Translations under genes and position numbers: made by a program
Source of the DNA: a virus
Reading direction: 5' to 3' (one strand)
Virus record (IMG/VR): IMGVR_UViG_3300043436_003269
Coordinates: 1 to 64,000 of that record
Length of the DNA stretch: 64,000 nucleotides
In this document: positions 17,153 through 45,678 of the stretch, in pieces
Position numbering within the stretch: the stretch's first letter is position 1
How the letters are laid out: each line of letters opens with the position of its first letter
Notes under the pieces: generated by a model
Told to the model about the DNA's origin: nothing
Databases searched by the model: none
What the model saw: the letters and a program-made list of their open reading frames with translations, nothing else

Positions 17153-18301
17153 TTAAAATTTTTCTCCGTTTTCAATTACATCATTCACATATTGAGTATG
17201 AGGTTTGGTTATATCTTCTTTTCTATAATAATAAATCCCCCAATCTCTGTTGCCATCTTGTGCTGGTAATGGTTGAACTTCTTTAATTCCATTTTTAATC
17301 ACACCTTCAATTCGGGCAGTATGAGGATAAACATCATCATGAGTTTCTTTGACACCATTCTTAACCGTTTGAACTACTTCTCGTAATCGATGATGTTCTT
17401 CCATGTTAGTTTCTTTTATCCCTTCCTCAACCACTCTTTCTACTACAGCATCTATTGAGGGAATCTGAGCACAGGTTTGTTTAACCCCATTCTTAATGAT
17501 ATCATCCAATCTCTCATCACCATCCTCCCAATCACCATACTCAGTATGTTTCACTCCTTCCTTTATAACATCTTCAATAACACAAGAACCATCAATTTGT
17601 AGTGATTTTTCGGTGTGTTTCACACCAGTCTCAATAACTTCTTTAACATCAAATTGGTCAGTCCAATCATATTCATGAGGAATTTTATCTGAGTAGGTAT
17701 TTTTCACCCCATTTTGAATAGCGCTTTCAACTACTGTATCTCTGGTATTTAACCAAAGTTGGGTGTTCTTCACCCCATTTTGAATGGTATCTTCAACTTC
17801 CTCAAGTTGAGAGTTAACCAATTCAATGGTTTCTTTAACACCTGTTTCAATCATGTATTCAATAACATCTTCGTCATCCATCTCAAGGTCAATAGTTTCC
17901 TTCACCCCATTATGTATGGTGTCTTCAACTCTATACGGACCATAATTTCTACCCCCAGAGGTATGCTTCACCCCATTTTGAATGGTGTCTTCAACCTGTT
18001 GGACCAAATGACGCTTCCGCACTTCAGTGTCTTTCACCTCATTTTTGACAGGTTTTTTCTTATTGATGACATTGTTCTCAACCCACTTTGTAATATAATG
18101 TTGGTTTTCAATTACATCCATTGAGGTATATGCAAATAAACTATTAAAGAAATTGTAGTTATACCATAACGTACCATCTTTGGTAAGTTCAATAACCCAT
18201 CTTTTATCATCTGTAAAAATGAGCCAAGTTGAACCATTATTAGTATATGTATCGACTTTCTGTACTGCCTCGTCGATTAATGTGTTGACAATTTTCTCCA
18301 T
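17153..18301 (-). CDS. Protein with 12 degenerate NGVK repeats
   Basis: This 382-aa protein has an N-terminal domain (about 1-80, STWLIFTDDKRWVIELTKDGTLWYNYNFF) followed by about 12 repeats of roughly 22 residues with core VxDxIxNGVKxT (QNGVKHT, HNGVKET, ETGVKET, KEGVKHT, EEGIKET and so on), with variable charged linkers. It ends in a Trp/Tyr segment and NDVIENGEKF. At DNA level several repeat units are nearly identical (about 28 bases around TTCACCCCATTTTGAATGG), so expansion is recent. The start is fixed by TACATTTG 4 nt upstream. Function unknown; a solenoid or binding scaffold is likely. Confidence 0.8.
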   Translation of the reverse strand: MEKIVNTLIDEAVQKVDTYTNNGSTWLIFTDDKRWVIELTKDGTLWYNYNFFNSLFAYTSMDVIENQHYITKWVENNVINKKKPVKNEVKDTEVRKRHLVQQVEDTIQNGVKHTSGGRNYGPYRVEDTIHNGVKETIDLEMDDEDVIEYMIETGVKETIELVNSQLEEVEDTIQNGVKNTQLWLNTRDTVVESAIQNGVKNTYSDKIPHEYDWTDQFDVKEVIETGVKHTEKSLQIDGSCVIEDVIKEGVKHTEYGDWEDGDERLDDIIKNGVKQTCAQIPSIDAVVERVVEEGIKETNMEEHHRLREVVQTVKNGVKETHDDVYPHTARIEGVIKNGIKEVQPLPAQDGNRDWGIYYYRKEDITKPHTQYVNDVIENGEKF

Positions 18302-18530: not shown

Positions 18531-18842
18531 TTATTCTATAGTATCTTCTTCCATACAATCTTGAGACGTATTAACTAAAACCATTGGTCTAATACCAATA
18601 TAATCTTCAATATATTTGGCGATTCTAGTTTCGATACTATTACCAATATATTTGGGAGTTAATACTAAAACAATATAGTCAGATGTTTTTGTGGCAACTA
18701 CATCACAAATAGGAATTTTGTTTTCAAAAAAACGTAAAACAAGTTCTTCCATAATGACACTTAATTTATCTCGTTCAATATGTTCTCTATTGAATTTTTT
18801 AATCGTATTTCGTAATTGTTCTTCTGTTATAATGTATTTCAT
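18531..18842 (-). CDS. Unknown protein with ITEEQ leader, 103 aa
   Basis: The leader MKYIITEEQLRNTIKKFNRE is followed by a small alpha/beta domain (SVIMEELVLRFF, DYIVLVLTPKYIGNSIETRIAKYIEDYIG). It shares the leader with the next two upstream genes (18846 and 19432) but not the body. The three lie in tandem, spaced by 3 and 13 bases, and form one transcription unit. A packaged small protein is inferred. Confidence 0.78.
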   Translation of the reverse strand: MKYIITEEQLRNTIKKFNREHIERDKLSVIMEELVLRFFENKIPICDVVATKTSDYIVLVLTPKYIGNSIETRIAKYIEDYIGIRPMVLVNTSQDCMEEDTIE

Positions 18843-18845
18843 ATA

Positions 18846-19418
18846 CTATTTGTCTCTATAAAGAATATCTGCGTACATCACATCAAGGTCTCTACCACCT
18901 TCAAGTTGTCGTATAACATCCTGTCTTTTAAATAAAGTGTGTGCCACAATATAATCAATCATTTCATCATCCGTTAAATCATCAGGTCTGACAAATTTAG
19001 GTTTACAAGGACTATCTATATTTGTACTAATCATAATTTCATCGATACTTAATCCTTTTTCATCAACCAACTCCTCAAATTTTGGAACCATTACGTCTTC
19101 ATACCACTCTTCAATAACATGGAGAGCATATGATTTTTTGATACTGAATATATTTCTAATTTGGTCAACAATCGTCATAGACACAATTAACTTACCAACA
19201 TTAAACTTACCATCTTCAAAATAATAATTTATCATGAAATGATTTTTACCATCTATACACCAATTTTCTGAAAGACTACCAAGATTGTTGTTTTTAGTAC
19301 TAAAAGTCCTTTCACCCTCTGAGAATAAAAGATTCAAATATTTAATAATCCCATTCTGTAACGCACCGCTACTTCTATTGAATCGATTGAATTGTTCTTC
19401 TGTGATTATTATCTTCAT
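18846..19418 (-). CDS. Unknown protein with ITEEQ leader, 190 aa
   Basis: The leader MKIIITEEQFNRFNRSSG matches the neighbour at 19432-20727 for its first 15 residues except position 2. The body has a strand-rich middle (GKNHFMINYYFEDGKFNVGKLIVSM), a helix (HVIEEWYEDVMVPKFEELV) and an acidic C-terminal region. No family recognised. Confidence 0.78.
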   Translation of the reverse strand: MKIIITEEQFNRFNRSSGALQNGIIKYLNLLFSEGERTFSTKNNNLGSLSENWCIDGKNHFMINYYFEDGKFNVGKLIVSMTIVDQIRNIFSIKKSYALHVIEEWYEDVMVPKFEELVDEKGLSIDEIMISTNIDSPCKPKFVRPDDLTDDEMIDYIVAHTLFKRQDVIRQLEGGRDLDVMYADILYRDK

Positions 19419-19431
19419 TATTAATTACTTA

Positions 19432-20727
19432 TTACATTGCAATGTTAACTTGTGATTTTAGATAGTTAGCTTGTTTAGCTATCTTGGTTAAAACATTACG
19501 GTAAGTTTTTTTATCATTTTTATAATATAATATTAATTGGTCTAATCCATCTTTACCAATCATTTTTAAGCTATTCGCATCAAAAACTTTTTCACCTTTT
19601 GTATATCTAAGAATATCATCTAAATAACCCATTAATTGCTCTTTAGGTAAATACTTCATCCAACTTTTAGTTGTGTTAGTTAAAGTTTGAAGTGCTGCCG
19701 ATGTAACCGCATTTATCTCATATGGGTGTAAGTTATAGTTTTTAACACTACTGGTATTATATGTTTTATTTAATTTACTACTAACCATTGATGGGTCTTT
19801 AATATGAGCCAACTCATGTCCTATTAATTCATCTAAATCGGCTTTCCCAACAATGTTTTTATTTACAAAAATACCATCACCTTTAGCAAACGCATCAATA
19901 TTTTTTAATTCAGGTCTAGTTTTGGCATACATATTTGGGTCAAAAACATTTATTTTAACTTGTTTTACACCATTCTTGGTATTAATTGACACAATTTGGG
20001 TTGTTTTACCTGTTTTAATTCCATTTGTCATGGCTTTAATACTCTGTAACTCTTCTTGTGAAAATTTCACTCCAAATTTTGTAGCAAAATTAGATAACTT
20101 GGGGGACGCAACTTTACCCTTTTTCAAAGTACCAATAAACTGTTCTTTAGTTATTTTTTTTGATACCAATTTCTTTAATAAATCATCATAAGCACTTTTA
20201 CCAAATCTTTGAACATAGCTTGGTTTAAATTGACTAACACTACCTTTTAAACTATTTAATATACTACTAGTCGCCTTTAATTCATTCGTCACAAGTGATT
20301 TATTGGCGTTGATTGATTTTAAAACTTGTGCTTCAGTTTGTGTAAATTTGGAGGTTTTTCCAACTTTTGATGCCAACGCAGCCATACCCTTCGCACCTAA
20401 TTGCTTAACTCCTGGTATTTTAGATACTACAGGACCTATAAATGGGAGTAATGAAAATCCTGTGGCAATAGCTGCGCTTTTATTATCACCTTCTTGATAA
20501 TATTGGAGAGCATCTAACGCTCCAATTCCAGCACTAATAAAAGGTCCTATAACAGGTATAAAGGCGGTTGCCAATCCTAAAATAGCATTTAATTCATGAG
20601 TTGGCATTTTAACAATTTTAGACATTTCCATTGCATGATATTGAGGTGTGAACATTGTGCCCATACCTTGCTCAGACAACTGTAAATTAAATCGGTTGAA
20701 TTGCTCTTCTGTGATTATTATTCTCAT
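19432..20727 (-). CDS. ITEEQ-leader protein: toxin-like hydrophobic module and HExxH
   Basis: This 431-aa protein starts MRIIITEEQFNRFNLQLSEQ. Residues about 40-115 form paired hydrophobic helices separated by a charged loop (GLATAFIPVIGPFISAGIGALD ... DNKSAAIATGFSLLPFIGPVV), the layout of the pre-toxin segment of polymorphic toxins and of colicin-like pores. About residues 290-310 hold LIGHELAHIKDP, an HExxH zinc site with a trailing Asp. So it may be a packaged toxin-like protein with a zincin domain. The class B box lies 4 nt upstream. Its relative at 44576-45619 has the same hydrophobic layout without the HExxH. Confidence 0.72.
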   Translation of the reverse strand: MRIIITEEQFNRFNLQLSEQGMGTMFTPQYHAMEMSKIVKMPTHELNAILGLATAFIPVIGPFISAGIGALDALQYYQEGDNKSAAIATGFSLLPFIGPVVSKIPGVKQLGAKGMAALASKVGKTSKFTQTEAQVLKSINANKSLVTNELKATSSILNSLKGSVSQFKPSYVQRFGKSAYDDLLKKLVSKKITKEQFIGTLKKGKVASPKLSNFATKFGVKFSQEELQSIKAMTNGIKTGKTTQIVSINTKNGVKQVKINVFDPNMYAKTRPELKNIDAFAKGDGIFVNKNIVGKADLDELIGHELAHIKDPSMVSSKLNKTYNTSSVKNYNLHPYEINAVTSAALQTLTNTTKSWMKYLPKEQLMGYLDDILRYTKGEKVFDANSLKMIGKDGLDQLILYYKNDKKTYRNVLTKIAKQANYLKSQVNIAM

Positions 20728-21958: not shown

Positions 21959-22322
21959 TAGAGAAGAGGTTTATAATAAGTGTGGAGGACATTGTGCTTA
22001 TTGTGGAAATGAAATCACAATAAAACAAATGCAAATCGACCACATAGAACCTTTATTTAGAAATCATACCGATAGTCAGTTGGAACATTACAAAAGGGAG
22101 AGAGGTACAAATGAAATATATAACCTTCTCCCTTCTTGTGGTAGATGTAATAAGTGGAAGAGCACATTCAGATTAGAAGACTTTAGAAAGGTCGTTAAAA
22201 CCTCAATAAATAGATTAGAAAGAGATACACCCAACTTTAATTTGGCTAGAGATTTTGGATTAATTACCGTAAATGATGTTGAAGTTGTTTTTTATTTTGA
22301 AAACAAAAATGGGAGTCAGTGA
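21948..22322 (+). CDS. HNH endonuclease
   Basis: This 124-aa HNH nuclease has CGGHCAYCGNEITI (first Cys pair, about 9-18), IDHIEPL (about 30-36, the catalytic His) and NLLPSCGRCNKWKST (about 62-76, the second Cys pair and N). Length and layout fit the small zinc-bound HNH family found in phages, as homing or DNA-cleaving enzymes. Its stop lies inside the bidirectional terminator at 22307-22331. Confidence 0.85.
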   Translation: MKINREEVYNKCGGHCAYCGNEITIKQMQIDHIEPLFRNHTDSQLEHYKRERGTNEIYNLLPSCGRCNKWKSTFRLEDFRKVVKTSINRLERDTPNFNLARDFGLITVNDVEVVFYFENKNGSQ

Positions 22323-22331
22323 CTCCCATTT
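22307..22331. terminator. Bidirectional terminator between convergent genes
   Basis: Near-perfect palindrome AAATGGGAGTCA / TGACTCCCATTT between the HNH and endolysin genes. Confidence 0.8.
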
Positions 22332-22333
22332 CA

Positions 22334-23164
22334 TTATTTAAGTAAGTTGTAATACTCTTTGAAGTGTTTGATTCTATCAGGTAACCCGATAGTTCCACCG
22401 TTCACTCTTTTTGTAACCGCAGTTACGGTAGCGTCATCAGCACCTTTATCACAAATAGCCCATAACTTATTTGAATCGAAGAAGAATGCTGCAGAAGCCA
22501 ATGGGTATTTTGTAGCAACCAAATCAGGATTAGCAACAGTATCTTCACCAATGAACTTAGCGAAGTTTGTGTAGTTTGCCTTACCTGTCAATTGGATGTA
22601 ACCTCTACCTCTAAATTTGAAACCTTCTTTTGTTGTTTCATCACCATTACCCATTCTACCACCATATACTTTGGAAGCAATTTTCTCAGGGTTTCTTGCG
22701 TATGACTCAGCAAGATTACCAGGGAAATATTTAGGGAAGATTTTTTTCAATCCATCAGCAGAATAGTTTAAGTTTTCAGACACAGCTTTAAAACCACCTG
22801 ACTCGTGACCACATTGTGATAAGAAGTGAGCTAACCTTAAATTGTTTGTAATGTTGAACTTTGCCGCAGTTTCAGGAATCTGAGCAATTACCGCATCAGG
22901 AATGTGACCTTTCAACTTGTCTATGTTTAATGGTCCCGCTTTCGCAATTACTACATCTTCTTTAATAACTGATGGAGCAACTCCACCAAACATTTTGGAC
23001 CAAGTACCGTCACCTACAATACCATCTGCAGTTAAACCATTTGCTGCTTGCCATTCTTTAACTTTAGTTTCAGTACCAGCACCGAAAATACCATCAGCCG
23101 CCAATCCTAATTTTTCTTGTAATTTCTTTACGTCATCACTTTTTGAACCTTTTTTTAATAACAT
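22334..23164 (-). CDS. Endolysin: peptidoglycan-binding + GH19 lysozyme
   Basis: This 276-aa cell-wall hydrolase has an N-terminal PG_binding_1 domain (about 1-60: VKKLQEKLGLAADGIFGAGTE, WQAANGLTADGIVGDGTW) and a GH19 catalytic domain (about 85-276). The GH19 shows AHFLSQCGHESGGF with catalytic Glu, NLNYSADGLKKIFP, and FRGRGYIQLTGKANY. There is no signal peptide, so release probably needs the holin candidates at 27400-28802. A class B box lies upstream, as expected for a late lysis gene. Confidence 0.92.
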   Translation of the reverse strand: MLLKKGSKSDDVKKLQEKLGLAADGIFGAGTETKVKEWQAANGLTADGIVGDGTWSKMFGGVAPSVIKEDVVIAKAGPLNIDKLKGHIPDAVIAQIPETAAKFNITNNLRLAHFLSQCGHESGGFKAVSENLNYSADGLKKIFPKYFPGNLAESYARNPEKIASKVYGGRMGNGDETTKEGFKFRGRGYIQLTGKANYTNFAKFIGEDTVANPDLVATKYPLASAAFFFDSNKLWAICDKGADDATVTAVTKRVNGGTIGLPDRIKHFKEYYNLLK

Positions 23165-23195
23165 TTTTTTTAATTTTTATTTAGTTTATTTTATA

Positions 23196-23203
23196 TATAA
23201 ATA
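23196..23203 (-). promoter_or_regulatory. Class B promoter box (TATTTATA)
   Basis: TATTTATA lies about 31 nt before the endolysin ATG and supports late expression. Confidence 0.5.
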
Positions 23204-23205
23204 GT

Positions 23206-24882
23206 TCAGTAACTAACTACTGAACCATTTGAATATCCTGTATTAATCAAATAATAACTTGAACTAGCACCACTCGTTGGGCTAGTAATTGTGATTGAAG
23301 TAGTACCAGGTAATGTACTTCTTAAATCCGAAGTTGAGGTGTTAATTGTATTATATTGGCTTGAAGTAAATAATCTTGTGTTAGGTAAAGACCCTCCCCA
23401 AGTTGAGAATCTACCGCTAATTCTCATATAAATTCGGTATACATCCGTTATATTAATATTCCCATCATTATTAACATCATATCGATAATAATCCAATGAG
23501 TTAAATGTTCTACTTATTACTTTATTGTTGGCGGAAATCGCATCATTATTACTAATAGTCGTTGTTGGTGTTGGTATGTCAATTTGAATATACCATTCAG
23601 TTGATGGATTTGTTGATTGAGAAAAAGAATAATACCCTAATGAATTAGTATAAACTGTTTGGTGTAATACCCATGCAGTGAAACCGACAACATAATCAAA
23701 CTCTATCACGTATGGTAGTGATGTGTTTGCCAAGTCATTCCATTTACCTCCACTTACAAACTGAGTATAATCTTCAGTCCCCGAATTGTTAGGTTCTCCA
23801 GGATTCCAATTAACATATTGGTTAGACCTATATCTATAATTGTATAGATTAAATGTTCTATCAATTTCATCAACAGTAATTGCTCTATTAAAGAATTGGA
23901 TGTCTCCCAATCTAAACGCACCATAACCACCATGTCCCATGTTAGTAGCATCTTGTAAACCAAAGGCAAAATGTTGTTGTCCTGTACCACTATGTAAAAA
24001 CGCCGCTTGACGAGTAAAGTTGGTACTACCAAAGTTTACGTTATTTAAATAACCTCTCATTGTTGTACCATCGTATGTGACGCATACTAAATTCCAAGTG
24101 TTTAAAGTAATTGAAGTACTTAATTGAGTAATCCCCGCACCGTTCCAAAATCCAACTCTTAATGTGTTTGAACCAGTAATTTCCATAATTGATTCATGCC
24201 AACCTGAAGAAGGACTTGCTACACCTAATTCAGATGCAATTACACCATTCCCTGTTGGGTAAATCCAAGCAACTACAGATATTGAAGTACTTGAAAACTT
24301 AGAAGCCAAATTATTCGTTATTGCGTATTGGTTAGTCCCATTAAATGTTAGATACTTACCACCTGTACTTGAATAAGTTGGTGTATTATATAGTGTGGAG
24401 TTAATTGAAGATTTAATGTCGGTCAAAACCGTTCCTGAAGAATATGAAGAAACGTCATAGTCTGCAGATAATCCATCGGTAACTTGTACCTCAGTCCAAC
24501 GATAACCACCAGCAGGTTCAGAATATGTGTATCCCGCAACCTTATCTTGATAATACCCAATCCAACCTGATGGCCATGTGTTGAATAAGAAATTATTCTC
24601 ACTGATATTAGACACTGTTGCCAAGTGACCATTCATGGATTCACAAGTTGTTTTTGCTGAAGTCCAAGTCGCACTACCTGTTGAACGATAATATGAATGT
24701 CCGTTATAGTTTGTTTGTGACGTGAACCCAACCAAATTTGGTGTGGTTCTTTTATATAACTTAACGGGAACATTAGGTGCCGCTCCTCCTCCTGCATTAT
24801 AGATGTAACCAGAATACGTAAATGTTTGACCAAAAAGAATATTGGTAAAAATTAAAAATAATATGGTTACATATTTCCTCAT
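23206..24882 (-). CDS. Secreted adhesin: C-type lectin fold with LamG inserted
   Basis: This 558-aa exported protein starts MRKYVTILFLIFTNILFGQ (signal peptide). A C-type lectin domain begins around residue 60 (SYYRSTGSATWTSAKTTCES, GHLATVSNISENNFLF, GWIGYYQDK) but is interrupted by a LamG/concanavalin-like domain (about 150-355: LTFNGTNQYAI, SISVVAWIYPTGNG, WNLVCVTYDGT, GDIQFFNRAITVDEI). The lectin then resumes with NWNPGEPNNSGTEDYTQF and KWNDL. A dockerin-like YYRYDVNNDGNINITDVY follows (about 470). There is no T9SS tail. It overlaps the upstream gene by 4 bases (ATGA). Confidence 0.82.
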   Translation of the reverse strand: MRKYVTILFLIFTNILFGQTFTYSGYIYNAGGGAAPNVPVKLYKRTTPNLVGFTSQTNYNGHSYYRSTGSATWTSAKTTCESMNGHLATVSNISENNFLFNTWPSGWIGYYQDKVAGYTYSEPAGGYRWTEVQVTDGLSADYDVSSYSSGTVLTDIKSSINSTLYNTPTYSSTGGKYLTFNGTNQYAITNNLASKFSSTSISVVAWIYPTGNGVIASELGVASPSSGWHESIMEITGSNTLRVGFWNGAGITQLSTSITLNTWNLVCVTYDGTTMRGYLNNVNFGSTNFTRQAAFLHSGTGQQHFAFGLQDATNMGHGGYGAFRLGDIQFFNRAITVDEIDRTFNLYNYRYRSNQYVNWNPGEPNNSGTEDYTQFVSGGKWNDLANTSLPYVIEFDYVVGFTAWVLHQTVYTNSLGYYSFSQSTNPSTEWYIQIDIPTPTTTISNNDAISANNKVISRTFNSLDYYRYDVNNDGNINITDVYRIYMRISGRFSTWGGSLPNTRLFTSSQYNTINTSTSDLRSTLPGTTSITITSPTSGASSSYYLINTGYSNGSVVSY

Positions 24883-25328
24883 ATTTTATTAACACCATCC
24901 ATTAAAGATTTCTTTAATGCTGCGGAGAATGATGATTTTTCAAATGGTATGTTCTCATCTTGTAGTTCAATAAAAGTTGACTTAACATCAATCTTACTCT
25001 CACCTACTCCGACATATTCCTTACCATTAATAATTATTTTGGTAGTTACAATTGTTACCTTTCTTTTCATTTCAAATGGACCAATTGCAATCCCTGTTGT
25101 TGGAGCTTCAATACTTTCAACAATAACAGAAACACTATCCCCATCCTCACAGATAGAATACTTCTCTGATATTACTTCTTCAGTAATCTGTTTAACACCA
25201 AGTGTGAATCTCTTTGGACTAATACCTTCAATATTAGCACGACTCTCAACATGTTTAACTGAATAACAGTTCTGAGCGTAAGTTAAAGACGCTAAGAACA
25301 TCACGGGAATTAATAATAGTTTTCTCAT
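24879..25328 (-). CDS. Secreted protein, 149 aa
   Basis: The signal peptide (MRKLLLIPVMFLASLTYAQ) is cleaved before NCY. The mature part is a beta-sandwich-like domain (FTLGVKQITEEVISEK, VTIVTTKIIINGKEYVGVGE) ending in a short helix. No family recognised. It overlaps both neighbours by ATGA, in a tightly packed secretion operon with the nuclease and the adhesin. Confidence 0.75.
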   Translation of the reverse strand: MRKLLLIPVMFLASLTYAQNCYSVKHVESRANIEGISPKRFTLGVKQITEEVISEKYSICEDGDSVSVIVESIEAPTTGIAIGPFEMKRKVTIVTTKIIINGKEYVGVGESKIDVKSTFIELQDENIPFEKSSFSAALKKSLMDGVNKI

Positions 25329-25912
25329 TTTATTTTGTATTTGGTATAATCTGTTGTTAATGGTTTCTCGTTCTTGAAGTAATACACTTCAGTAGTTTTA
25401 CCGTATTTGATTGTCTTGTAGTATGCATCAGGTATTGTTGCACCTGTTGGTAACACAATTGACTTTGGTGAATACACACATCTAATCTCAACAACAACTT
25501 TCTGTGTCTTTGATAAATCCCTTTCTCTTACCTCTAACAATCTCCAAGTGGTTCTGTTAAGGTTCTCTTGTTGTAGGGAACAATTAAGGTATGTGAAGGT
25601 CTTAAATAACATTTCACTTGTACAGTTAAAATCAGCTGCAGGTGCCAAATGTCCTTTATCATATGGATTGTTTGCATAGTCCTTGTCATCTGAGGTTAGG
25701 ATTGAATCACAAACGTAAAAGTCCATACCCTTTCTTGGTGCGGTTCCATTTGGACATTGAACCGTGTATCTAATAAATTTAGGTTGTTGTAATTTCTCTG
25801 AATACACCAACTCAAACATGTCAGTCTTGACATAAATTGAATCTCTTAATGTTTTTTGCCCGTAAACGAATAATGGTAAAATAAATCCTAATGTTAGTAA
25901 TAGTTTTTTCAT
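25325..25912 (-). CDS. Exported DNA/RNA non-specific endonuclease (NUC1 type)
   Basis: This 195-aa nuclease has a signal peptide (MKKLLLTLGFILPLFVYGQ). The catalytic motif DKGHLAPAADF (about residues 100-110) matches the D(R/K)GH core of the EndA/NucA family; LNCSLQQENLNRTTW supplies the metal-binding Asn. The Arg to Lys change in DRGH is known in some active family members. Start 25912 is chosen because the signal peptide begins there. It acts outside the cytoplasm: host defence, scavenging of DNA or killing of rival phage DNA are all possible. Confidence 0.88.
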   Translation of the reverse strand: MKKLLLTLGFILPLFVYGQKTLRDSIYVKTDMFELVYSEKLQQPKFIRYTVQCPNGTAPRKGMDFYVCDSILTSDDKDYANNPYDKGHLAPAADFNCTSEMLFKTFTYLNCSLQQENLNRTTWRLLEVRERDLSKTQKVVVEIRCVYSPKSIVLPTGATIPDAYYKTIKYGKTTEVYYFKNEKPLTTDYTKYKIK

Positions 25913-25913
25913 G

Positions 25914-27398
25914 TTATAATAATGCCTTTGCCCCAAGTAATACTTGGTAATTTATTGTGGTACTTTTTATTTGTTGAACCCCACTGAAGCTCAAGTTAAG
26001 TTTAAATTTCTTTGTTAATCTATAATCAAATGCTGTGAATGGAACCATTAACCAACCTGACTTATACCATAAACCTTCGTAGTAATAAACGAAAGGTGAA
26101 TAAACCACAACCATCATGGTTGTATTGGTTATCTTCTTACTTACTTTGAATGTTCCAACTCCACCACCAAGTGCAGATAAACTTTGGAATCTTGATTCAC
26201 CCAATTTACCCGTAGTAAAATTAACCCCAAGTGTTGATGTAATTGATTTATACTTGTATGAAGTCATTAAAGAAGTAGTATTGAACAAATCTCTCTCAAA
26301 GTTTAACATTGATGAATTAGCAACAATCCCTGTAAAACTTTTAACTTTCCTACCCATGAATAAAGTTAAACTTGAGTTGTTAATACTGGTTGTATAGTTA
26401 AGTAACGCACCTTTAACAACTGTGTTGTTGGTATTACTTTTAACAACACTCATATTCATTCTAAATTGTTGTGGTTCTCCTTGTGTCGCACTATTAATTA
26501 CAACTATATCACCATTCAATACAATCCCTCCTTGTTTTGCATTAGCAACTTTCTCTTTTGCACTTGATGTACTTCTCGCATTATCTGTACTTTGATTTTG
26601 TTGTGTTTCGTCAGGAGTTTGTGTATTACTATTCTGACCATTACCCTGAGGATTTGAACCGTTCCCTCCTACAGTCGACCCAGTCTGTTGACCTCCTCCT
26701 TGAGTTGTTGTATTCGGATTTCCTGTGTTTCCTCCTGATGTCTGTGACGTTTCTCCACTTCCTTGAGTTTGTCCTCCACCATTTGGATTAGTGTTTCCGC
26801 CTGTTTGGTTTGGTTGATTTGTCTGAGTTCCTCCAGAGCTACCATTATTTCCCTCGTTAGTTTGCCCATTTCCTTGTTTTTGATTGTTAATGGTTTGACT
26901 ACCCTGACCATTAGTGGTAGGATTACTATTTGATGTCGTATTATTATTATTCGATGAGTTGTTGTTCTTTTTTTTGTTGTCCTCTGATGCTGATTTTTCT
27001 TTCGCCTCGACAATTCCACCAACACTCGCTCCCCCAATTGAACTTATGTCGGTTAATGCTGACATCACATTAGTCAATACCGCAATATTATTTTGAGTTA
27101 TTAACACATTCATATTTGTATTTTGGGCTAAACCAACACCACTACATGGTCCGTTGGGATTTTGTGAATTAACTTGATTAACCCACTGTTCCATCGCCCC
27201 TGATTGTAATTCAGCTGCGGTAAAACTCTGTATCGAACCATTATAGGTAAGTAACACATTACCCGATGGATTGTCGATATAAATTTGTTTCTGTTTAAAG
27301 GTACAGGGGTCCGTAAATGTATACGAGAACCCCTGTCCTAAAACCATTATCGTGTTGAACAGAAAACTTAAAGTAAATAAAATTTTCTTAATATTCAT
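25914..27398 (-). CDS. Secreted outer-membrane-type protein with N/Q/G-rich linker
   Basis: This 494-aa protein has a signal peptide (MNIKKILFTLSFLFNTIMVLGQ), an N-terminal domain (about 25-130), a very long low-complexity Asn/Gln/Gly/Ser/Thr linker (about 140-275) and a C-terminal ~200-residue region of alternating strands (MNMSVVKSNTNNTVVKGALL ... FKLNLSFSGVQQIKSTTINY) typical of an outer-membrane beta-barrel. It neighbours the nuclease and the CsgG-like gene, suggesting a shared envelope function. The linker probably spans the periplasm or extends outward. Confidence 0.75.
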   Translation of the reverse strand: MNIKKILFTLSFLFNTIMVLGQGFSYTFTDPCTFKQKQIYIDNPSGNVLLTYNGSIQSFTAAELQSGAMEQWVNQVNSQNPNGPCSGVGLAQNTNMNVLITQNNIAVLTNVMSALTDISSIGGASVGGIVEAKEKSASEDNKKKNNNSSNNNNTTSNSNPTTNGQGSQTINNQKQGNGQTNEGNNGSSGGTQTNQPNQTGGNTNPNGGGQTQGSGETSQTSGGNTGNPNTTTQGGGQQTGSTVGGNGSNPQGNGQNSNTQTPDETQQNQSTDNARSTSSAKEKVANAKQGGIVLNGDIVVINSATQGEPQQFRMNMSVVKSNTNNTVVKGALLNYTTSINNSSLTLFMGRKVKSFTGIVANSSMLNFERDLFNTTSLMTSYKYKSITSTLGVNFTTGKLGESRFQSLSALGGGVGTFKVSKKITNTTMMVVVYSPFVYYYEGLWYKSGWLMVPFTAFDYRLTKKFKLNLSFSGVQQIKSTTINYQVLLGAKALL

Positions 27399-27399
27399 A

Positions 27400-27747
27400 T
27401 TAGATTTCTGTCACGTCAGACATAACATTACCGTCTTCTTCGTCAACTTTTTGGATTAACATTTTATCACGGTCTTCTGAATTGAACCAGTAATCAACCA
27501 CTTTGTTTAAGTTACCAACGAACGCACCTAAAAGGATAAGTAACATCTCTTTCCAATCTTCTTTGATTTCAATTCCAAAGAACACCGCTGAGTTGATACC
27601 CAAGATAATGAAGAAAAATAACCCCAATACGATTGCGGTAATTCTCCAACGATTTGATTGCATTTGTTGTAACATGTAGTAGAAACGATTCTTATCGTCT
27701 ACCTTTGTGTAACCTGTTTCACCCATTAATAATTTTTTTAAATTCAT
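27400..27747 (-). CDS. Two-helix membrane protein, holin candidate
   Basis: This 115-aa protein has two hydrophobic segments (WRITAIVLGLFFFIILGINSA at about 33-53 and WKEMLLILLGAFVGNLNKVV at about 65-84) with a short connecting loop and a charged C-terminus. Two segments and the neighbouring lysis genes make a holin plausible, but sequence alone does not prove it. It is adjacent to the CsgG-like lipoprotein. Confidence 0.5.
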   Translation of the reverse strand: MNLKKLLMGETGYTKVDDKNRFYYMLQQMQSNRWRITAIVLGLFFFIILGINSAVFFGIEIKEDWKEMLLILLGAFVGNLNKVVDYWFNSEDRDKMLIQKVDEEDGNVMSDVTEI

Positions 27748-27753
27748 TTGTTT

Positions 27754-28470
27754 TTAAGATTTAAAGACACCCTTTTTTATTAATTTTGACACAACTCTTG
27801 ACGATGCCGTTTCGAGAGCCTTTTTGGTCGAAATACCTATTGTTGATTGATTAAACTTAATGTCTTCCACATCAGACAAAATTGAAGATGTCTTAACAGT
27901 TGAGGACTCACCTAAACCACTACCTGTGATAATCTCACCTGTTTCAGCATCAACAAATCTAACTTGTAATCCCAAACGAGTTGTCTGTGTCGCCTTAGCT
28001 CCGTCAACCGCTTTAACCACTTCGTCTTCAGAAACTGAAAAGTCATATACCTCGATGTAAACAAAATACTTAGCTAAGATAACGTTACCCTTAACTTCAA
28101 TTTTATTACTCGAAATACCTTTATCAGATGCTTTGTCTTGTGCAATCATCTTTTGTTTAATTTCTTCTCGGTCTTCAGTGAACTTAAATCTATCTGTTGA
28201 CTCCAAGTACTCTAACACAATGTTTGCAACCCCTAACCCAACTCTTTTATCTTTAAGTTCAGGGTACATTTCATAAAGTTCCTCGTTGATACCAATTTTA
28301 AGAACTTGAATAGGAATAACGATTGTGTCGGTGTAATCCGACACGACCGCCATAGATTGTTTCTTTTCGAAATCTGCTTGATACTCTTCAGTTTTTACCG
28401 TACCAATTTGTCCACTTACTTTACAAGAGAACAAAAATAATGGTAGTGTAATCAATAACAACTTTCTCAT
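27754..28470 (-). CDS. CsgG-like outer-membrane lipoprotein
   Basis: This protein of about 238 aa has a lipoprotein signal (LPLFLFSCKV; Cys at about 16). The body matches the CsgG/HfaB secretion-channel fold: SDYTDTIVIPIQVLKIGIN, GVANIVLEYLESTDRFKFTE, FVYIEVYDFSV, and the domain ending in ISTKKALETASSRVVSKLIKKG. CsgG forms a nonameric outer-membrane pore that exports curli subunits. A phage copy is unusual. I start at the ATG 28468-28470; its start overlaps the preceding stop by 1 base. Confidence 0.8.
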   Translation of the reverse strand: MRKLLLITLPLFLFSCKVSGQIGTVKTEEYQADFEKKQSMAVVSDYTDTIVIPIQVLKIGINEELYEMYPELKDKRVGLGVANIVLEYLESTDRFKFTEDREEIKQKMIAQDKASDKGISSNKIEVKGNVILAKYFVYIEVYDFSVSEDEVVKAVDGAKATQTTRLGLQVRFVDAETGEIITGSGLGESSTVKTSSILSDVEDIKFNQSTIGISTKKALETASSRVVSKLIKKGVFKS

Positions 28471-28802
28471 TACCAACTTTCTTCTTCCTTTTTAGGTTGT
28501 GCTTGTGCTGGTTGTGAAGCTGCAGGTTTTTCAACTACTCGTTCAATAACATGAGTTCCACCATTCTCAACCTTTTGTTTGTTTTCTTGATTTTGTTGTA
28601 CATTCAAGTTGATAACAGGTTGTGATGCAGGTGCAGCTTGTTCAGTTTTAGGTTCTTCTTTGTCATCAGAACTTTCACCACCGAAAAGTGTTGTTGTAAA
28701 CCAAGTACCACCAGCTAAAACCGCTGTTGATATTGTTCCGATTAGGGTCTTTTTAAGGCCAGACCAAGTTCCGTCGTTTGTTTCTTGTGTTTCTTCACTC
28801 AT
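28470..28802 (-). CDS. Single-pass membrane protein with Pro/Gln-rich tail, 110 aa
   Basis: A short N-terminal polar region leads to one hydrophobic segment (LIGTISTAVLAGGTWFTTTLF, about 20-40), then a long acidic, Ala/Pro/Gln-rich tail (EPKTEQAAPASQPVINLNVQ...QAQPKKEEE). It could be a spanin- or holin-accessory-like lysis protein or a TonB-like arm. Located between the T9SS cargo and the CsgG-like gene. Confidence 0.55.
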   Translation of the reverse strand: MSEETQETNDGTWSGLKKTLIGTISTAVLAGGTWFTTTLFGGESSDDKEEPKTEQAAPASQPVINLNVQQNQENKQKVENGGTHVIERVVEKPAASQPAQAQPKKEEESW

Positions 28803-28868
28803 TTTTGTTTTGTTTTTGTTTTGGTTTATTATTTTGGCTAAGAGGTCACCGAAGTGACCTCATTATAA

Positions 28869-30782
28869 TTATTGTACAACTATTTTTGTTGCGATGTTTG
28901 TGTCAACTCTTCTTAACATTGCCACGTAAACTCCTGGTGATAAGTTACCTAAATCAACCATGTAAGAATATTCTCCTTTTGGAACTGAACCATCCAAAAC
29001 AACTTCATATTCTCTACCCATTAAATCTTTAACTGAAAGTTTAACAGGACCGTATTCTTTAACTTTAAATGTAATTGTTGTGAAATCATCTGTTGGATTT
29101 GGTGAAACTGTAATCTCATCATTACCTGTTAAATCACCACCGAAAGCCATCTTATATACTTGAACGATTCCGTTTGTTGGTGTGATTTCCAAATCTTTAC
29201 ATTGGTTGTTTCCTGCGAATTTGTTTGTTGTCCATAAAGGACTAACTGTCCATTCCGCTTGTGGTTTTTTTGCAACGAATTGTAAAGTCACAACCTCAGC
29301 ACCATCAACAAGTGGTTTGGTGTGGTTGTTCACATCGAATCCACCCCAATCAATTTGGTTGTCGTTTGTGTTCAAGTATGATACCCAACTTGAAGTTGCT
29401 GATTTTGTTTCAACACCTTTGAACTCAAGTAATGTATCGTTGTATTTTAATCCGAACTGTAATGAACCTAACTCAGTACCGTTAGTTAAAACTTTAACAG
29501 GTACATTAACCAAGTTACCTTCTTGTACTGATAACCTTGGTACGTTAACTTCGATAGTTGTTGTTGGGAAATCATATTCAACTCTACTATCAATCACATT
29601 ATAGATTTGATGTTCAACACCTGGTTGAGGTGCGATTAACACTTCGATTGGTGTCATACGTGCCATGTTATAACCTGTTCCATTAGCATCACCTGGTACT
29701 AAAACATAGTAAGTAACTGAGTCAGGTTGACCTGCGATGATATCATAAGTGAAGTTGGTTACACCTGCAATTGATGAAGTATAGTTAGTGGATGAACCGT
29801 TGATAGTTCCGTATTGTGATACTGTAAAGAACTTAACATCTTTTACGTTGTTAGGCCATACAGAGAATCTACCTGAGATTCTACCAAATGTACCCCAAGC
29901 ATCCGAGATAGTTAAGTTATTGTCACCATTAACATCAGCAGCATAGTAATCAAAACCTGTTGGTGTTTGTGTACCTAATACATAGTCCTGTACTTTTTGA
30001 GCATCTGCTGTGGATATTACGTTACCTACACCCATAGTATCACCTTGTACTTTAATTCTTACAAAATAACCTGTAGTATCTATTGCCACGTTTGCAAAAT
30101 TAAACTTACCTTGTGTGTTTGTAAGTTGACTGGTAACTTGAACCCACGAACCACTTGGTTTAAGTTTCTTCTCCAAAGCAACTGTAAGGTTTTTAGCCCC
30201 TGAACCTGTCACGTTGGTAAAAGTACCTTTGAATGACATTGTTTGAGGAGCAATTACACCACCGTAGTTTTGTAGAGTTAATGTATTATCTGTACCATCT
30301 TGTTTAGCTGCAACTGCAGGATATGTAGATACTGTTCCAAATGTCATATTCGCAATTGAAGTAAGTGATGCGAAGTTTGATACATGGTCTAGTTTTAATC
30401 TAACAATCGGACCTGACGGTAATTCAAATGTTGATAAACTACCTGTATAAGTGAAAGTGATTGTTGCCGAACCAGATGCCTGAGCAACAGAATATTTCAA
30501 GTTTTGAGCGAATGAAGTATTCAGTGAAGTTATGGTATCGATACCTGAAAAAGCCGAGTTATCGTAGAAAACTCTAAATTGGAAAGCGGTAATCTTTGTC
30601 GAGGTATTGTTGTAGAAACATAAATCTACATTGGTAAAACCTTGAGCAACGGTACCTGCTAAGTACGAGGTGTCCAAGTTAATGTAAACACCTGCGGTCG
30701 ATGGTATTGGACAAGTTGTGGTTTGCCCAAAACCAAAAATGGTTAATAACGAGAACGTTAGGGAAAGGAGAATTTTTTTCAT
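28869..30782 (-). CDS. Secreted multidomain protein with T9SS type A sorting domain
   Basis: The signal peptide (MKKILLSLTFSLLTIFGFGQ) precedes an N-terminal cohesin-like beta domain, a dockerin-like pair (YYAADVNGDNNLTISDAW, about 285-300), a second cohesin-like domain (RLSVQEGNLVNVPVKVLTNG ... LKYNDTLLEFKG), and a C-terminal ~85 residues (EITVSPNPTDDFTTITFKV ... LSVKDLMGREYEV ... GNLSPGVYVAML), the Por_Secre_tail that directs type IX secretion. It is the second T9SS-tailed protein in the window. Start is at the signal peptide ATG 30780-30782; ATG 30788 is the alternative. Confidence 0.85.
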   Translation of the reverse strand: MKKILLSLTFSLLTIFGFGQTTTCPIPSTAGVYINLDTSYLAGTVAQGFTNVDLCFYNNTSTKITAFQFRVFYDNSAFSGIDTITSLNTSFAQNLKYSVAQASGSATITFTYTGSLSTFELPSGPIVRLKLDHVSNFASLTSIANMTFGTVSTYPAVAAKQDGTDNTLTLQNYGGVIAPQTMSFKGTFTNVTGSGAKNLTVALEKKLKPSGSWVQVTSQLTNTQGKFNFANVAIDTTGYFVRIKVQGDTMGVGNVISTADAQKVQDYVLGTQTPTGFDYYAADVNGDNNLTISDAWGTFGRISGRFSVWPNNVKDVKFFTVSQYGTINGSSTNYTSSIAGVTNFTYDIIAGQPDSVTYYVLVPGDANGTGYNMARMTPIEVLIAPQPGVEHQIYNVIDSRVEYDFPTTTIEVNVPRLSVQEGNLVNVPVKVLTNGTELGSLQFGLKYNDTLLEFKGVETKSATSSWVSYLNTNDNQIDWGGFDVNNHTKPLVDGAEVVTLQFVAKKPQAEWTVSPLWTTNKFAGNNQCKDLEITPTNGIVQVYKMAFGGDLTGNDEITVSPNPTDDFTTITFKVKEYGPVKLSVKDLMGREYEVVLDGSVPKGEYSYMVDLGNLSPGVYVAMLRRVDTNIATKIVVQ

Positions 30783-30822
30783 TAGCATTTTGTTTTTGGT
30801 TTATTTTTATTTTAGTATTGAC

Positions 30823-30830
30823 TATAAATA
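30823..30830 (-). promoter_or_regulatory. Class B promoter box (TATTTATA)
   Basis: It lies about 40 nt upstream of the T9SS cargo ATG, giving a leader, unlike most class B genes. Confidence 0.5.
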
Positions 30831-30877: not shown

Positions 30878-31333
30878 ATGAGACTATTTTTTTTGTTATT
30901 ATTCGTTGTGTTATTCACCCCAATTTACTCACAAGTTAAGATTGATGATGTCGGAGATGGGTGGAAATTAAGAGTTGATAGTGCCGTCGCACTAATAAGA
31001 AATACCGATTCAGATAAGTACGAACTGTTGATAGAAGTTTGTGACCACATATCTTATTGGAATGGTGGGTTTTCAACTATTGAGGACTCCTCCACGATTC
31101 TAATTACTCAGAGGGATATGTTGTACGGTTCAATAAATAATATTGCTGCAATCATCATTCATGAATCCAAACATTTATTCTATTTAAGAAATAAAGTAAA
31201 ACTTCCTCCACATGAAGAAGAGCTAAGGTGTTATAAATATGAATTGGATTTCCTCAATAAGATTCCAAATGTCGAACCTTGGTTAATCGGTAATGCAAAA
31301 GATAAGATAAGATTATATTCTTCTTTGGATTAA
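30878..31333 (+). CDS. Secreted zincin-like protein
   Basis: This 151-aa protein has a signal peptide (MRLFFLLLFVVLFTPIYSQ) and IIHESKHLFYLRN (about 105-117) with an HExxH motif, followed by an acidic EEELRCYKYELDFL helix. The size and layout suggest a minimal metallopeptidase acting outside the cytoplasm. The third ligand is not obvious. It is transcribed opposite to the T9SS gene from its own class B box. Confidence 0.7.
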   Translation: MRLFFLLLFVVLFTPIYSQVKIDDVGDGWKLRVDSAVALIRNTDSDKYELLIEVCDHISYWNGGFSTIEDSSTILITQRDMLYGSINNIAAIIIHESKHLFYLRNKVKLPPHEEELRCYKYELDFLNKIPNVEPWLIGNAKDKIRLYSSLD

Positions 31334-34294: not shown

Positions 34295-35197
34295 TTATGA
34301 CAACATTTTTTTTAACCAGGCTTCTAATGTGATGGTTGTAATTGGTCCGAATTTTTCAATGTACTTCTCACAGTGTAATCCGTACATCCTGTCGTGCCCC
34401 AATCTATCCGTCACATATTCGTATTTGGGTGTGTTTCCAATCACTTCTCCAACCTTCGCGATAAGTTGGTTGTTTGTAATTCTATAACCACTCCCTATAT
34501 TAAATACTTCATTTTTGATATCCGACATTAACAAATTGTAAATTGCTAATGAATTATCATCGGCATGAATCCATTCCCTAACTTGTTCTCCATCACCATA
34601 AACAGGTATCGTATCTCCGTTATTAACACATTGGATAATTTTAGGTAACATCTTCTCAGGGTGTTGGTTTTCACCGAAGTTATTACAAGTCCTGGTAATG
34701 ATGTAAGGTAACCCAAATGTTCTTCCCGCCGCTTCAACAATCATGTCTGAACCAATCTTGGATGACGAATAATAAGAACTTCCATGTAGGTTAGATTCTT
34801 CTGTTGCCAAAACCAATTTACCATTAATCAAACGGTCACCATAAACCTCATCAGTTGAAACGTGAATGAACTTCTTAAGTTTCTTAAGGTTCTTAGCCAA
34901 CTCAACCAAGTTGAATGTTCCCTCCACATTTGTTCTCATGAAAGGTCTACCGTCTTTAATTGAATTATCTACGTGGGTCTCAGCTGCGAAGTGAACAATA
35001 TAATCAGAATCAGGTAGATATTGAATCTCCCAAATATCCTCTTGGATGAACTTAACATCACACTTAATGTTATCTTTATTCGCTGCGTAGGTTAACTTAT
35101 CAATTATCGTTATCTCACACTCAGGATGTAACTCCTTCAACTTATTCACAAAATGGGAACCTATGAATCCATAGGCTCCCGTAACGACTACCTTCAT
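34295..35197 (-). CDS. dTDP-glucose 4,6-dehydratase-like SDR (RmlB family)
   Basis: This 300-aa extended SDR enzyme shows GAYGFIGSHFV (NAD-binding GxxGxxG), THVDNSI, STDEVYG, YSSSKIGSDM (YxxxK), and CNNFGE motifs. It probably converts dTDP-glucose or a related nucleotide sugar to the 4-keto-6-deoxy form. The next genes are a lytic transglycosylase and a small membrane protein, so it may feed surface glycosylation. Length is shorter than typical RmlB (~350), so it could be a related epimerase. Confidence 0.85.
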   Translation of the reverse strand: MKVVVTGAYGFIGSHFVNKLKELHPECEITIIDKLTYAANKDNIKCDVKFIQEDIWEIQYLPDSDYIVHFAAETHVDNSIKDGRPFMRTNVEGTFNLVELAKNLKKLKKFIHVSTDEVYGDRLINGKLVLATEESNLHGSSYYSSSKIGSDMIVEAAGRTFGLPYIITRTCNNFGENQHPEKMLPKIIQCVNNGDTIPVYGDGEQVREWIHADDNSLAIYNLLMSDIKNEVFNIGSGYRITNNQLIAKVGEVIGNTPKYEYVTDRLGHDRMYGLHCEKYIEKFGPITTITLEAWLKKMLS

Positions 35198-35199
35198 AC

Positions 35200-35742
35200 T
35201 TAATATTTAATCCAATTATTTTTATAATTCTTGTTTGACGCTGCAAACACTGCATATGAGTTTCTAACAGGTGAACCAGTGTTGTACCCACCACAAGCCA
35301 ACATCCAATCACGAGTCATATCATATCTTGTTCTCAACATCTTCATACTAACCTTAACATTTAAGTCAATGTTATTACGTAACTCTTTTTCACTAACTCT
35401 TCTTTCAGCATAACTGTGAGCCCATCTTGTAATGATTTGCATTGGTCCCTGAGCTCCTGCTGAAGACACTTTCCTGTGGTCATAATTCCAATGGAATGGT
35501 CCCTGATAACGTGTTTCAAGGTATGCCACGTTGTACGCAATATACTTAGGTACCTTGTACATCTCACTGTATTTCTCAATTGAGGTGTACATCTGTAAAC
35601 AGAATGGTGAGTTTGGTTTCCCACCTAATTCACTTAAACTATATTCGTCCTGGCGAACATACTTGTTTGTGAGACTCATGGTAGCCATTATGACCGCCAT
35701 GAGACACAAGACATACAGGAATTTAAGTCCTCTCTTCAACAT
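35200..35742 (-). CDS. Lytic transglycosylase (SLT-type)
   Basis: This 180-aa exported protein has an N-terminal hydrophobic segment (LKFLYVLCLMAVIMATMS) then the SLT core: VAYLETRYQG with the catalytic Glu, HRKVSSAGAQGPMQI, and GGYNTGSPVRNSY. It cleaves the peptidoglycan backbone, possibly in genome entry or lysis. Its ATG overlaps the next gene's TAA, so the pair is coupled. Confidence 0.85.
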   Translation of the reverse strand: MLKRGLKFLYVLCLMAVIMATMSLTNKYVRQDEYSLSELGGKPNSPFCLQMYTSIEKYSEMYKVPKYIAYNVAYLETRYQGPFHWNYDHRKVSSAGAQGPMQIITRWAHSYAERRVSEKELRNNIDLNVKVSMKMLRTRYDMTRDWMLACGGYNTGSPVRNSYAVFAASNKNYKNNWIKY

Positions 35743-36071
35743 TATTTCTCAGTTTTAGGAGTTGATGGAGCGGAAGCTTGACCCCAAATGTTCTTGGCAT
35801 ATAGACCAAAGATTGTATATCCAACTGAGTCTTGATAAACCGTATAAGACCCGTCACTCTCTTTGATGATTAACAAGTTGTTGTTCTCGTCAATCGCCAA
35901 CTTGATATCCGATTTTCTAACCGATGTGAACTTAGGTTCTTTCTTATAACTTTGTTTCACAAAATCATAGTAGTATCCGATTGAGAAACCAACGATAAGG
36001 CTGATGGTGATTACTGTGTAGAATGAAACTTGCTTCATTACTTGTCCGATTTTTTCTTTTAGATTTTCCAT
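35742..36071 (-). CDS. Single-pass membrane protein, 109 aa
   Basis: The N-terminus is charged (MENLKEKIGQVMKQVSF), with one TM helix (YTVITISLIVGFSIGYYYDFV, about 18-38). The soluble C-terminal part is beta-rich (DIKLAIDENNNLLIIKESDG) and ends in a Pro-rich tail. It is co-transcribed with the lytic transglycosylase. Confidence 0.6.
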   Translation of the reverse strand: MENLKEKIGQVMKQVSFYTVITISLIVGFSIGYYYDFVKQSYKKEPKFTSVRKSDIKLAIDENNNLLIIKESDGSYTVYQDSVGYTIFGLYAKNIWGQASAPSTPKTEK

Positions 36072-36915: not shown

Positions 36916-37323
36916 ATGGAGTTAGATAAGGAGAAATTAAAACGTCTTGAAGATAAATTAAAATATCTATACAAGATGGAGCTTGAACAGAAAAAGTTTG
37001 TAGTTAGTGCCATAGACATTGATTTTGAGCAAGACCAACTTGAAACTGGTGAGTGGATTCTTGAAAGGGTTGTTATTCAAGTGGATTTTGAATACGACGG
37101 GAGACTTGATGGGGATGACGTATATTACTTTACCCGTGACTTAAAAATTATGTGTGATAAGTTTACTTCAGCACTTTCACAATATACCCCAACTCAAGAA
37201 GGTAAAATTGTTAGTGGTACTTCAGATAATATTGTTTCAGACCCAATGGTAATCAGAGTTGATTACAAATATGAGGACACCCACAATTTTACATTAGCAA
37301 CTTATATCACATTCCCAAGATAA
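36916..37323 (+). CDS. Unknown acidic protein, 135 aa
   Basis: MELDKEKLKRLEDKLKYLYK begins an N-terminal coiled coil, followed by a beta-rich acidic domain (VVSAIDIDFEQDQLETGEWI ... IVSDPMVIRVDYKYEDTHNF). Its stop overlaps the ATG of the zinc-finger gene at 37323 (TAATG). No family recognised. Confidence 0.7.
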   Translation: MELDKEKLKRLEDKLKYLYKMELEQKKFVVSAIDIDFEQDQLETGEWILERVVIQVDFEYDGRLDGDDVYYFTRDLKIMCDKFTSALSQYTPTQEGKIVSGTSDNIVSDPMVIRVDYKYEDTHNFTLATYITFPR

Positions 37324-38108
37324 TGAACGATAAATTAAAAAGATTAGCCAAAAATGTTTCAGAGTTATTACCTGAAGACCTAAGAGACCCTCAAGATGTA
37401 TATGACGCGTTTTCAGTAGTATATAGTAATCAAGCGGACTACTTCCGTAATTTAGGTCCTGAAAATATCATCAAAATGGTTTTCTACATTTACTCACTTA
37501 AAGATACAGGTAGTTTCGCATTAGGAGATAAAATAATTAATAATCTCTCATTCGCATCACTATTCACAACCAGTGGTAATTACGCAGATGAGGAATGCCC
37601 TGCATGTGAAGGTTCTGCCACAGTAAGTTGCGATAATTGTGATTTTAACGGTAGAGTAGAATGTCCGACATGTGATGGAACTGGTTATGAATCAGAGGAT
37701 GAACCATGTAATGACTGTCAAGGTAACGGTGATGTATATTGTGACCAATGTGGCGGTGATGGTGATATAAGATGCGATGAATGTTCTGGTACAGGAGAAG
37801 TTGAAACCGATAGATTCCACTTCGAACATTATTATATATGTACTTGGAGTGAAGAGATTAAAAGTGCTTGTGAATTAGAATCAGGTACAAAAGAACCTGC
37901 AATGTCTGAATACGATTTTGACCGTTTACGTGGTGACAACTATCTTACATTATTTTATCAGGGAGACGAATCCGAATTAAGAAGTTTTGTTGACATAAAT
38001 GAAATGTATTGTATCACCTACGAAGATGAACCAAGATTATTGATTGCGAATAATAACCTAATCATTCATTGGGATGATAGTCAATCATTTGATATTTATA
38101 GATTATAA
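37323..38108 (+). CDS. DnaJ-type cysteine-rich zinc protein
   Basis: This 261-aa protein has five CxxC knuckles in the middle (about 95-160: CPACEG, CDNCDF, CPTCDG, CNDCQG, CDQCGG, CDECSG), the CxxCxGxG pattern of the DnaJ zinc region, but there is no J domain. The N- and C-terminal parts are helical. The zinc region can bind unfolded proteins or nucleic acids. It is co-transcribed with flanking genes (36916-38616). Confidence 0.75.
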   Translation: MNDKLKRLAKNVSELLPEDLRDPQDVYDAFSVVYSNQADYFRNLGPENIIKMVFYIYSLKDTGSFALGDKIINNLSFASLFTTSGNYADEECPACEGSATVSCDNCDFNGRVECPTCDGTGYESEDEPCNDCQGNGDVYCDQCGGDGDIRCDECSGTGEVETDRFHFEHYYICTWSEEIKSACELESGTKEPAMSEYDFDRLRGDNYLTLFYQGDESELRSFVDINEMYCITYEDEPRLLIANNNLIIHWDDSQSFDIYRL

Positions 38109-43826: not shown

Positions 43827-43828
43827 CC

Positions 43829-44565: not shown

Positions 44566-44575
44566 AATAATATAA

Positions 44576-45619: not shown

Positions 45620-45656
45620 TAAAAATGATTTATTAATAAATATCCATAAAACAAAA

Positions 45657-45678
45657 AAAAGGGTTGTTAAACCCTTTT
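45657..45678 (-). terminator. Intrinsic terminator
   Basis: AAAAGGGTT / AACCCTTTT stem with GTTA loop; it overlaps the stop codon of the methyltransferase and ends in a T run on the minus strand. Confidence 0.85.

Follow-up and report, generated by a model that had tools for sequence, protein, structure and literature searches.

Why would a phage keep, in one compact run, so many genes for exported and membrane proteins of the host envelope? The question is raised by a window of 64,000 nucleotides from an IMG/VR virus record of 81.6 kb (IMGVR_UViG_3300043436_003269), for which a preliminary description had listed nine genes on one strand with overlapping or closely spaced junctions, proposing that the phage rebuilds the outer surface of its host. 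The layout was borne out: nine ORFs, here called P1 to P9, all lie on the minus strand and form one packed unit, which spans 22334-30788 and does not, as first given, extend to 30830. The features of the block and its immediate surroundings are as follows.

28869..30788, minus strand: P9, putative surface scaffold with a signal peptide, a dockerin-like calcium-loop module, a Cohesin domain (aa 412-544) and a T9SS type A sorting tail (aa 562-638)
28470..28802, minus strand: P8, small single-pass protein; weak N-terminal transmembrane or anchor segment, tail rich in Pro/Gln/Asn, 7-nt overlap with P7
27754..28476, minus strand: P7, exported protein with a predicted CsgG fold, the most conserved member; lipobox Cys in the window copy
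27400..27747, minus strand: P6, two-helix inner-membrane protein, candidate holin (alignment)
25914..27398, minus strand: P5, predicted outer-membrane beta-barrel protein (AF2 and Foldseek)
25325..25936, minus strand: P4, exported NUC1-type DNA/RNA non-specific endonuclease (Endonuclease_NS, 4.9e-19)
24879..25328, minus strand: P3, small exported relative of P7 with the predicted CsgG fold (hhalign)
23206..24882, minus strand: P2, exported adhesin with C-type lectin and LamG domains (Pfam)
22334..23164, minus strand: P1, endolysin and last gene of the unit (PG_binding_1 and GH19 by Pfam; phrog_181 endolysin, 1.4e-66)
22306-22332: strong terminator-like hairpin of 12 pairs, directly 3' of P1, closing the unit
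30878..31333, plus strand: P10, exported HExxH protein, probable metallopeptidase, divergent neighbor of the block in the window

Junctions range from -23 to +66 nt (P9/P8 +66, P8/P7 -7, P7/P6 +6, P6/P5 +1, P5/P4 -23, P4/P3 -4, P3/P2 -4, P2/P1 +41), and since the 12-pair hairpin follows right after the last gene, a single transcription unit is plausible for the whole nine-gene block. Purifying selection acts on every gene tested (dN/dS 0.03-0.26). Pfam matches over cut-off identify P1 (GH19 and PG_binding_1), P2 (Lectin_C and Laminin_G_3), P4 (Endonuclease_NS) and P9 (Cohesin and Por_Secre_tail), and PHROGs and NCBIfam confirm all four, upholding the initial calls of an endolysin, a lectin/LamG adhesin, an exported nuclease and a T9SS-tailed protein. 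P3, P5, P6, P7 and P8 have no over-cut-off match in Pfam, PHROGs or NCBIfam; among the profiles named at the outset, Por_Secre_tail, GH19 and NUC1 were thus recovered and CsgG (PF03783) was not. P9 and P8 are separated by 66 nt, and a stable 8-pair hairpin within this gap (28842-28861) could adjust how strongly the scaffold is expressed relative to the rest of the operon.

Several other genes of the window deserve mention in their own right. Three neighboring proteins encoded at 18531-20727 on the minus strand have the N-terminal peptide M-[KR]-[IY]-I-I-T-E-E-Q-[FL] in common, perhaps a shared tag for capsid targeting, and a 382-aa protein (17153-18301, minus strand) consists of many degenerate VEDTIQNGVKNT-type repeats. 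About 4.4 kb upstream of the block, 35200-35742 on the minus strand encodes a signal-anchored, lytic transglycosylase-like protein and adjoins a single-pass protein (35742-36071), and the protein of 37323-38108 (plus strand) contains a DnaJ-like cysteine-rich zinc-binding stretch with repeated CxxCxGxG-type motifs.

Is the block a real genetic unit or an accident of assembly? The same block was found again in about 130 viral contigs and in an isolate, Flavobacterium phage immuto, which disposes of the concern that it might be an assembly join with host DNA; nor are its genes scattered in relatives, being syntenic and in the same order in immuto. We collected relatives with a P7 search (the best 80 of 199 relatives from one pattern scan), to which P9 and divergent-P5 searches added others, and built gene families across 137 loci, in which P7 defines 41 distinct lineages. 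The order of scaffold, single-pass protein, CsgG-fold protein and barrel (P9, P8, P7, P5) was present in 41/41 lineages, accompanied by P3 in 37, P2 in 36, P10 in 26, P1 in 25, P6 in 19 and P4 in 9; as the loci were fetched with P7, P9 or P5, these counts of co-occurrence depend on that choice, whereas gene order and companion genes do not. Five lineages miss P3 or P2; in four of them a contig end cuts the block, and in the fifth (L096) P2 alone is missing. Across the 137 loci the common order is P9, P8, [P6], P7, [P6], P5, then P2, P3, P4 and P10 in variable order. The endolysin gene is found at one end or the other, or on the opposite strand, and P9 is preceded by the lectin gene in the immuto branch. 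Core neighbors are separated by median gaps of -7 to +16 nt, and P7 and P5 adjoin, or have P6 alone between them, in nearly all cases. P10, divergent in the window, is in other lineages often the last gene on the same strand as the block, and the HExxH motif is present in 92/92 of its relatives. The anatomy of the block and its strong conservation are firm.

The carriers are a large, mostly uncultured group of viruses infecting Bacteroidota-type bacteria. Block-bearing contigs reach 434 kb, so that phages of jumbo size are included. Members of the P7 family are 63-86% identical to the window protein; in 296 Bacteroidota genomes P7 was absent but for one, which holds a phage-like contig, and in genome contigs it was absent but for two MAG contigs. 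P7 appears to be a phage family. In some lineages the block is flanked by replication, metabolism/nucleotide and lysis genes, and no match to the capsid, portal, terminase or tail genes of immuto was found in the flanks from 40 lineages. We rejected a structural role in the virion in view of the signal peptides and of the lack of such structural genes in these flanks.

The Por_Secre_tail of P9 scores 31.3 bits against a cut-off of 27 in Pfam and 24 against 23 in NCBIfam, recurs in 37/38 relatives and, together with the signal peptide, marks P9 as a type A cargo of the T9SS, whose sorting tail is common among Bacteroidota genomes. Beyond the tail, which had been recognized at the outset, P9 carries a Cohesin domain that had been overlooked (3e-11, 44.1 bits against a cut-off of 24.1; 33/38 relatives) and a dockerin-like stretch (23/38 relatives), in whose calcium loop D285, N287 and D296 are invariant. 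The same D, N and D are nearly invariant in P2, which has this dockerin-like calcium-loop module in common with P9 and no T9SS tail. In the immuto branch (L058, L070, L072-L076, L094 and relatives), P9 is represented by two adjacent genes, one for the N-terminal scaffold part and one for the cohesin and T9SS tail.

The heads of P2 vary. In its family (n=53), Lectin_C occurs in 40/53, LamG in 16/53 and a dockerin-like match in 13/53 members, and other heads are of the Ig_7, GEVED, legume lectin or PA14 type. The window P2 has a LamG domain inserted into, and interrupting, its C-type lectin, an insert that is missing from P2 of a relative with a 93% identical P7. Most telling in the block is this pattern of a tailed scaffold that stays constant and lectin heads that are exchangeable and share one module. 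It recalls the scaffoldin-dockerin pairs of cellulosomes, in that partner proteins bear a Cohesin and a dockerin-like calcium loop and the heads change on a scaffold that does not; unlike in those pairs, the dockerin matches of the window (17.7 and 14.6 bits) lie below the Pfam cut-off of 22.9 with a single good, invariant loop, and P9 itself bears both module types. Cohesin-like and single-loop dockerin-like domains are also found in non-cellulosomal surface proteins, and for this reason docking of P2 on P9, suggested by the shared module, is not implied by the sequences. Among phages, Cryophage likewise equips proteins with host T9SS sorting tails and varies their content (PMC7468147), but its tailed proteins are variable genes, in contrast with the one tailed scaffold that is fixed here in a conserved operon.

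The barrel with a linker that had been proposed for P5 was recovered by structure prediction. The AF2 model comprises an N-terminal domain (aa 24-85) with two invariant cysteines, a helix (aa 88-122), a disordered S/G/N/T/Q-rich linker (aa 123-279, low pLDDT), a short helix (280-288) preceding strand 1, and a barrel (aa 290-494) whose 12 strands span aa 291-492, mostly at pLDDT 70-90; in relatives the linker measures 59-388 aa. Foldseek retrieved outer-membrane barrels (NanC at 3.7e-5, KdgM, EspP, TamA and many FapF chains), and P5 is accordingly predicted to be a 12-strand outer-membrane barrel; sequence search against PDB returned low-complexity matches only. FapF, the Pseudomonas amyloid exporter, is a trimeric, plug-gated 12-strand channel with a linker and a periplasmic coiled coil (PMC5557850), a layout that the P5 model shares in its N-terminal, presumably periplasmic helical part, disordered linker and 12-strand barrel, helices 280-288 and 88-122 being compatible with, but no proof of, a plug and a coiled coil. 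P5 shows no detectable sequence relation to FapF and has the extra N-terminal domain with its two invariant cysteines; the match in layout is one of a predicted model, and Pfam recognized no Fap-like neighbors in the block. A fusion of CsgF to a barrel was also considered. The mature N-terminus of P5 (QGFSYTFTDPC) resembles that of CsgF (QQLVYTPVNP) by eye, but its score against CsgF, 15.7, is within 60 shuffles (maximum 16.4) and the spacing varies, and we rejected the idea.

P7 had been described as a CsgG-like lipoprotein, and the CsgG export pore had been carried over to it. The fold, though not the pore, is supported. With a low-confidence AF2 model (pLDDT 59.5), the top 18 Foldseek matches in PDB are CsgG/curli chains (best 4uv2, E 1.7e-7; TM-scores about 0.45), followed by FlgT, PelC, GNA1162 and LptE, and phage CsgG ranks first in the viral structure library BFVD. 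By sequence, P7 has no match to the CsgG profile PF03783 at E <= 0.1, a profile of 15 P7 relatives finds no CsgG chain in PDB up to E 10, and hhalign against E. coli CsgG gives a probability of 1%. The putative pore-hairpin regions have no signatures of the CsgG GARYFG and FRF..RLLE type and are more charged and less amphipathic than those of CsgG (median 1.39/1.44 versus 1.97/2.07); the two hydrophobic, membrane-spanning amphipathic hairpins of CsgG are missing. The lipobox cysteine present in the window copy is not conserved, 17/32 relatives having a Cys near the site. P7 is thus modeled on a CsgG scaffold, a CsgG pore is not supported and, given the missing hairpins and signatures and the unconserved lipobox, its role at the outer membrane is uncertain.

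P3, first described as an exported beta protein, is indeed exported; what had escaped notice is its kinship with P7. The two align at E 8.6e-8 in hhalign, and their mature parts alone score 30.6 (P 3.4e-4) where 60 column shuffles reach at most 22.1. By profile comparison P3 is homologous to P7, which means that the block holds two proteins of the predicted CsgG fold. An identity of P3 as CsgE was rejected on comparison, and its matches to ribosomal protein S1 in PDB are taken as chance because they cover only ~49 residues of an exported protein. A CsgG/LptE-fold protein beside an outer-membrane barrel is also the arrangement of PelB-PelC and LptD-LptE, and the P7 model matches PelC and LptE; from gene adjacency, P7 may interact with P5. 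The remaining core protein, P8, has an N-terminal segment of moderate hydropathy only and an invariant terminal Trp (128/128 relatives).

CsgG-type proteins are not new to phages. For the CsgG/CsgF sets of pelagimyophages and pelagipodophages, which infect SAR11, and of the OM43 phage Melnitz, published interpretations are a curli-like secretion, the capture of siblings or a pore that times lysis (PMC7029224, PMC9599517, PMC9004378). The present block resembles them in that a CsgG-type protein belongs to a conserved group of several genes directed at the host outer membrane. Those sets were recognized by CsgG/CsgF homology, with curlin-like repeat genes added in one study; here, P7 has no CsgG profile match, P5 is not CsgF above shuffles, and no curlin was recognized among the neighbors classified across the loci. 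The block differs from those sets, too, in its 12-strand barrel, its T9SS scaffold, its lectins and its second protein of the CsgG fold. In HTVC008M, neither csgG nor csgF turned up by name in 70000-147284.

Could the block be a module for lysis and egress? P6 would then act as holin and P1 as endolysin, P8 in the inner and P7 in the outer membrane would work like a pair of spanins or like a pore through the outer membrane, and the remaining exported proteins would help to dissolve envelope and debris. An endolysin lies near the block in 86/137 loci (25/41 lineages), and P6, whose position within the block varies, never co-occurs with the immuto-type holin (76 and 10 loci, respectively; both in 0), which fits P6 as a holin; a TIGR04370 match of P6 was far under its cut-off and was discarded. 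For the CsgG of Melnitz, moreover, a part in the timing of lysis has been proposed, as a pinholin or gated pore (PMC9004378). The P8/P7 overlap resembles that of spanin genes, but P7 relatives do not conserve the lipobox, and a spanin-like gene of its own lies elsewhere in immuto. Immuto, cultured on Flavobacterium sp. LMO8, has a genome of 160 kb and a gp23-type major capsid protein. Its block at 9.9-16.4 kb comprises NUC1, the lectin, the split P9, P8, P7, P5 and P3, without P6 and P1 (P8, P7, P5, P3 and the first P9 half being annotated as hypothetical), while its lysis set is located at 43.7-46.5 kb, about 28 kb from this intact core: endolysin and holin at 43732-44779, then an i-spanin-like protein at 45825-46175. 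Because immuto keeps this set apart from a core without P6 and P1, the core is probably not lysis machinery, and the lysis genes are probably frequent partners of the block and not its core function. Lysis would also leave the T9SS-tailed scaffold and the variable lectins unexplained, and we consider it unlikely as an overall account. In the immuto stretch 44779-46488 (L165:16779-18488), endolysin and holin are succeeded by a YneF-like protein with two helices, then by a protein of Ala-rich repeats and by a probable i-spanin whose gene overlaps another; the last three carry the annotation hypothetical.

We think that the block probably changes or coats the outside of the infected cell, and as its overall function we tentatively favor, at a little less than an even chance, a phage-encoded operon for surface export and display. 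P9 would be exported via host Sec and then host T9SS and become a scaffold attached to the cell surface, presenting its cohesin and calcium-loop dockerin-like module. P5 would form a 12-strand outer-membrane channel with a tethered periplasmic domain, P7 and P3 would be its periplasmic or outer-membrane partners, as LptE is for LptD or PelC for PelB, and P8 would tie the assembly to the inner membrane. We infer that P5, P7, P3 and P8 act as a complex which brings Sec-exported partners without a T9SS tail, chiefly the lectin P2, to the surface, where P2 would dock onto P9 through the shared module. The cell would thereby be coated with exchangeable lectins, the benefit most likely being adhesion to neighboring cells or glycans, or masking of receptors; endolysin and holin-like protein would share the transcript in many lineages. 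The most far-reaching form of this proposal, a self-contained secretion-and-display machine in which the phage's own channel (barrel, two CsgG-fold partners, inner-membrane link) and a cohesin scaffold placed by the host T9SS build an adhesive coat with exchangeable lectin heads, we regard as unlikely; no phage machine of that kind is described in the literature searched.

Surface-directed products with exchangeable heads would also suit superinfection exclusion, in which the phage barrel and the coat of lectin and scaffold would keep other phages from their receptors by blocking or masking these, and the window also has a sugar-modifying gene, a nucleotide-sugar epimerase at 34295-35197. However, exclusion usually takes one or two genes, not such a set, and we hold this explanation to be quite unlikely. 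Very improbable, in our judgment, is a scavenging unit, whereby exported nuclease, protease and lectin together with an outer-membrane channel supply the infected cell with nucleotides or other outside polymers. It would make sense of a unit that combines an outer-membrane barrel with a NUC1 nuclease and an exported HExxH protein, and of the ribonucleotide reductase genes that adjoin the block in some lineages, yet the nuclease is optional (9/41 lineages) and no uptake machinery is seen besides the barrel. Of the preliminary proposal, then, the frame of an envelope and surface module stands, but its ranking of lysis, exclusion and export as equals does not, the immuto core being kept apart from the lysis set.

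We found no description of this block in the open-access papers searched. Why phages carry incomplete curli-like gene sets is debated, the suggestions ranging from lysis timing to sibling capture, and the present block adds a separate, more elaborate case that has a cultured representative in immuto and is directly testable. If our reading is true, phages use two export routes to alter what the surface of an infected cell binds, and the block would define two new families, one of the CsgG fold and one of barrels, whose partners are clear.
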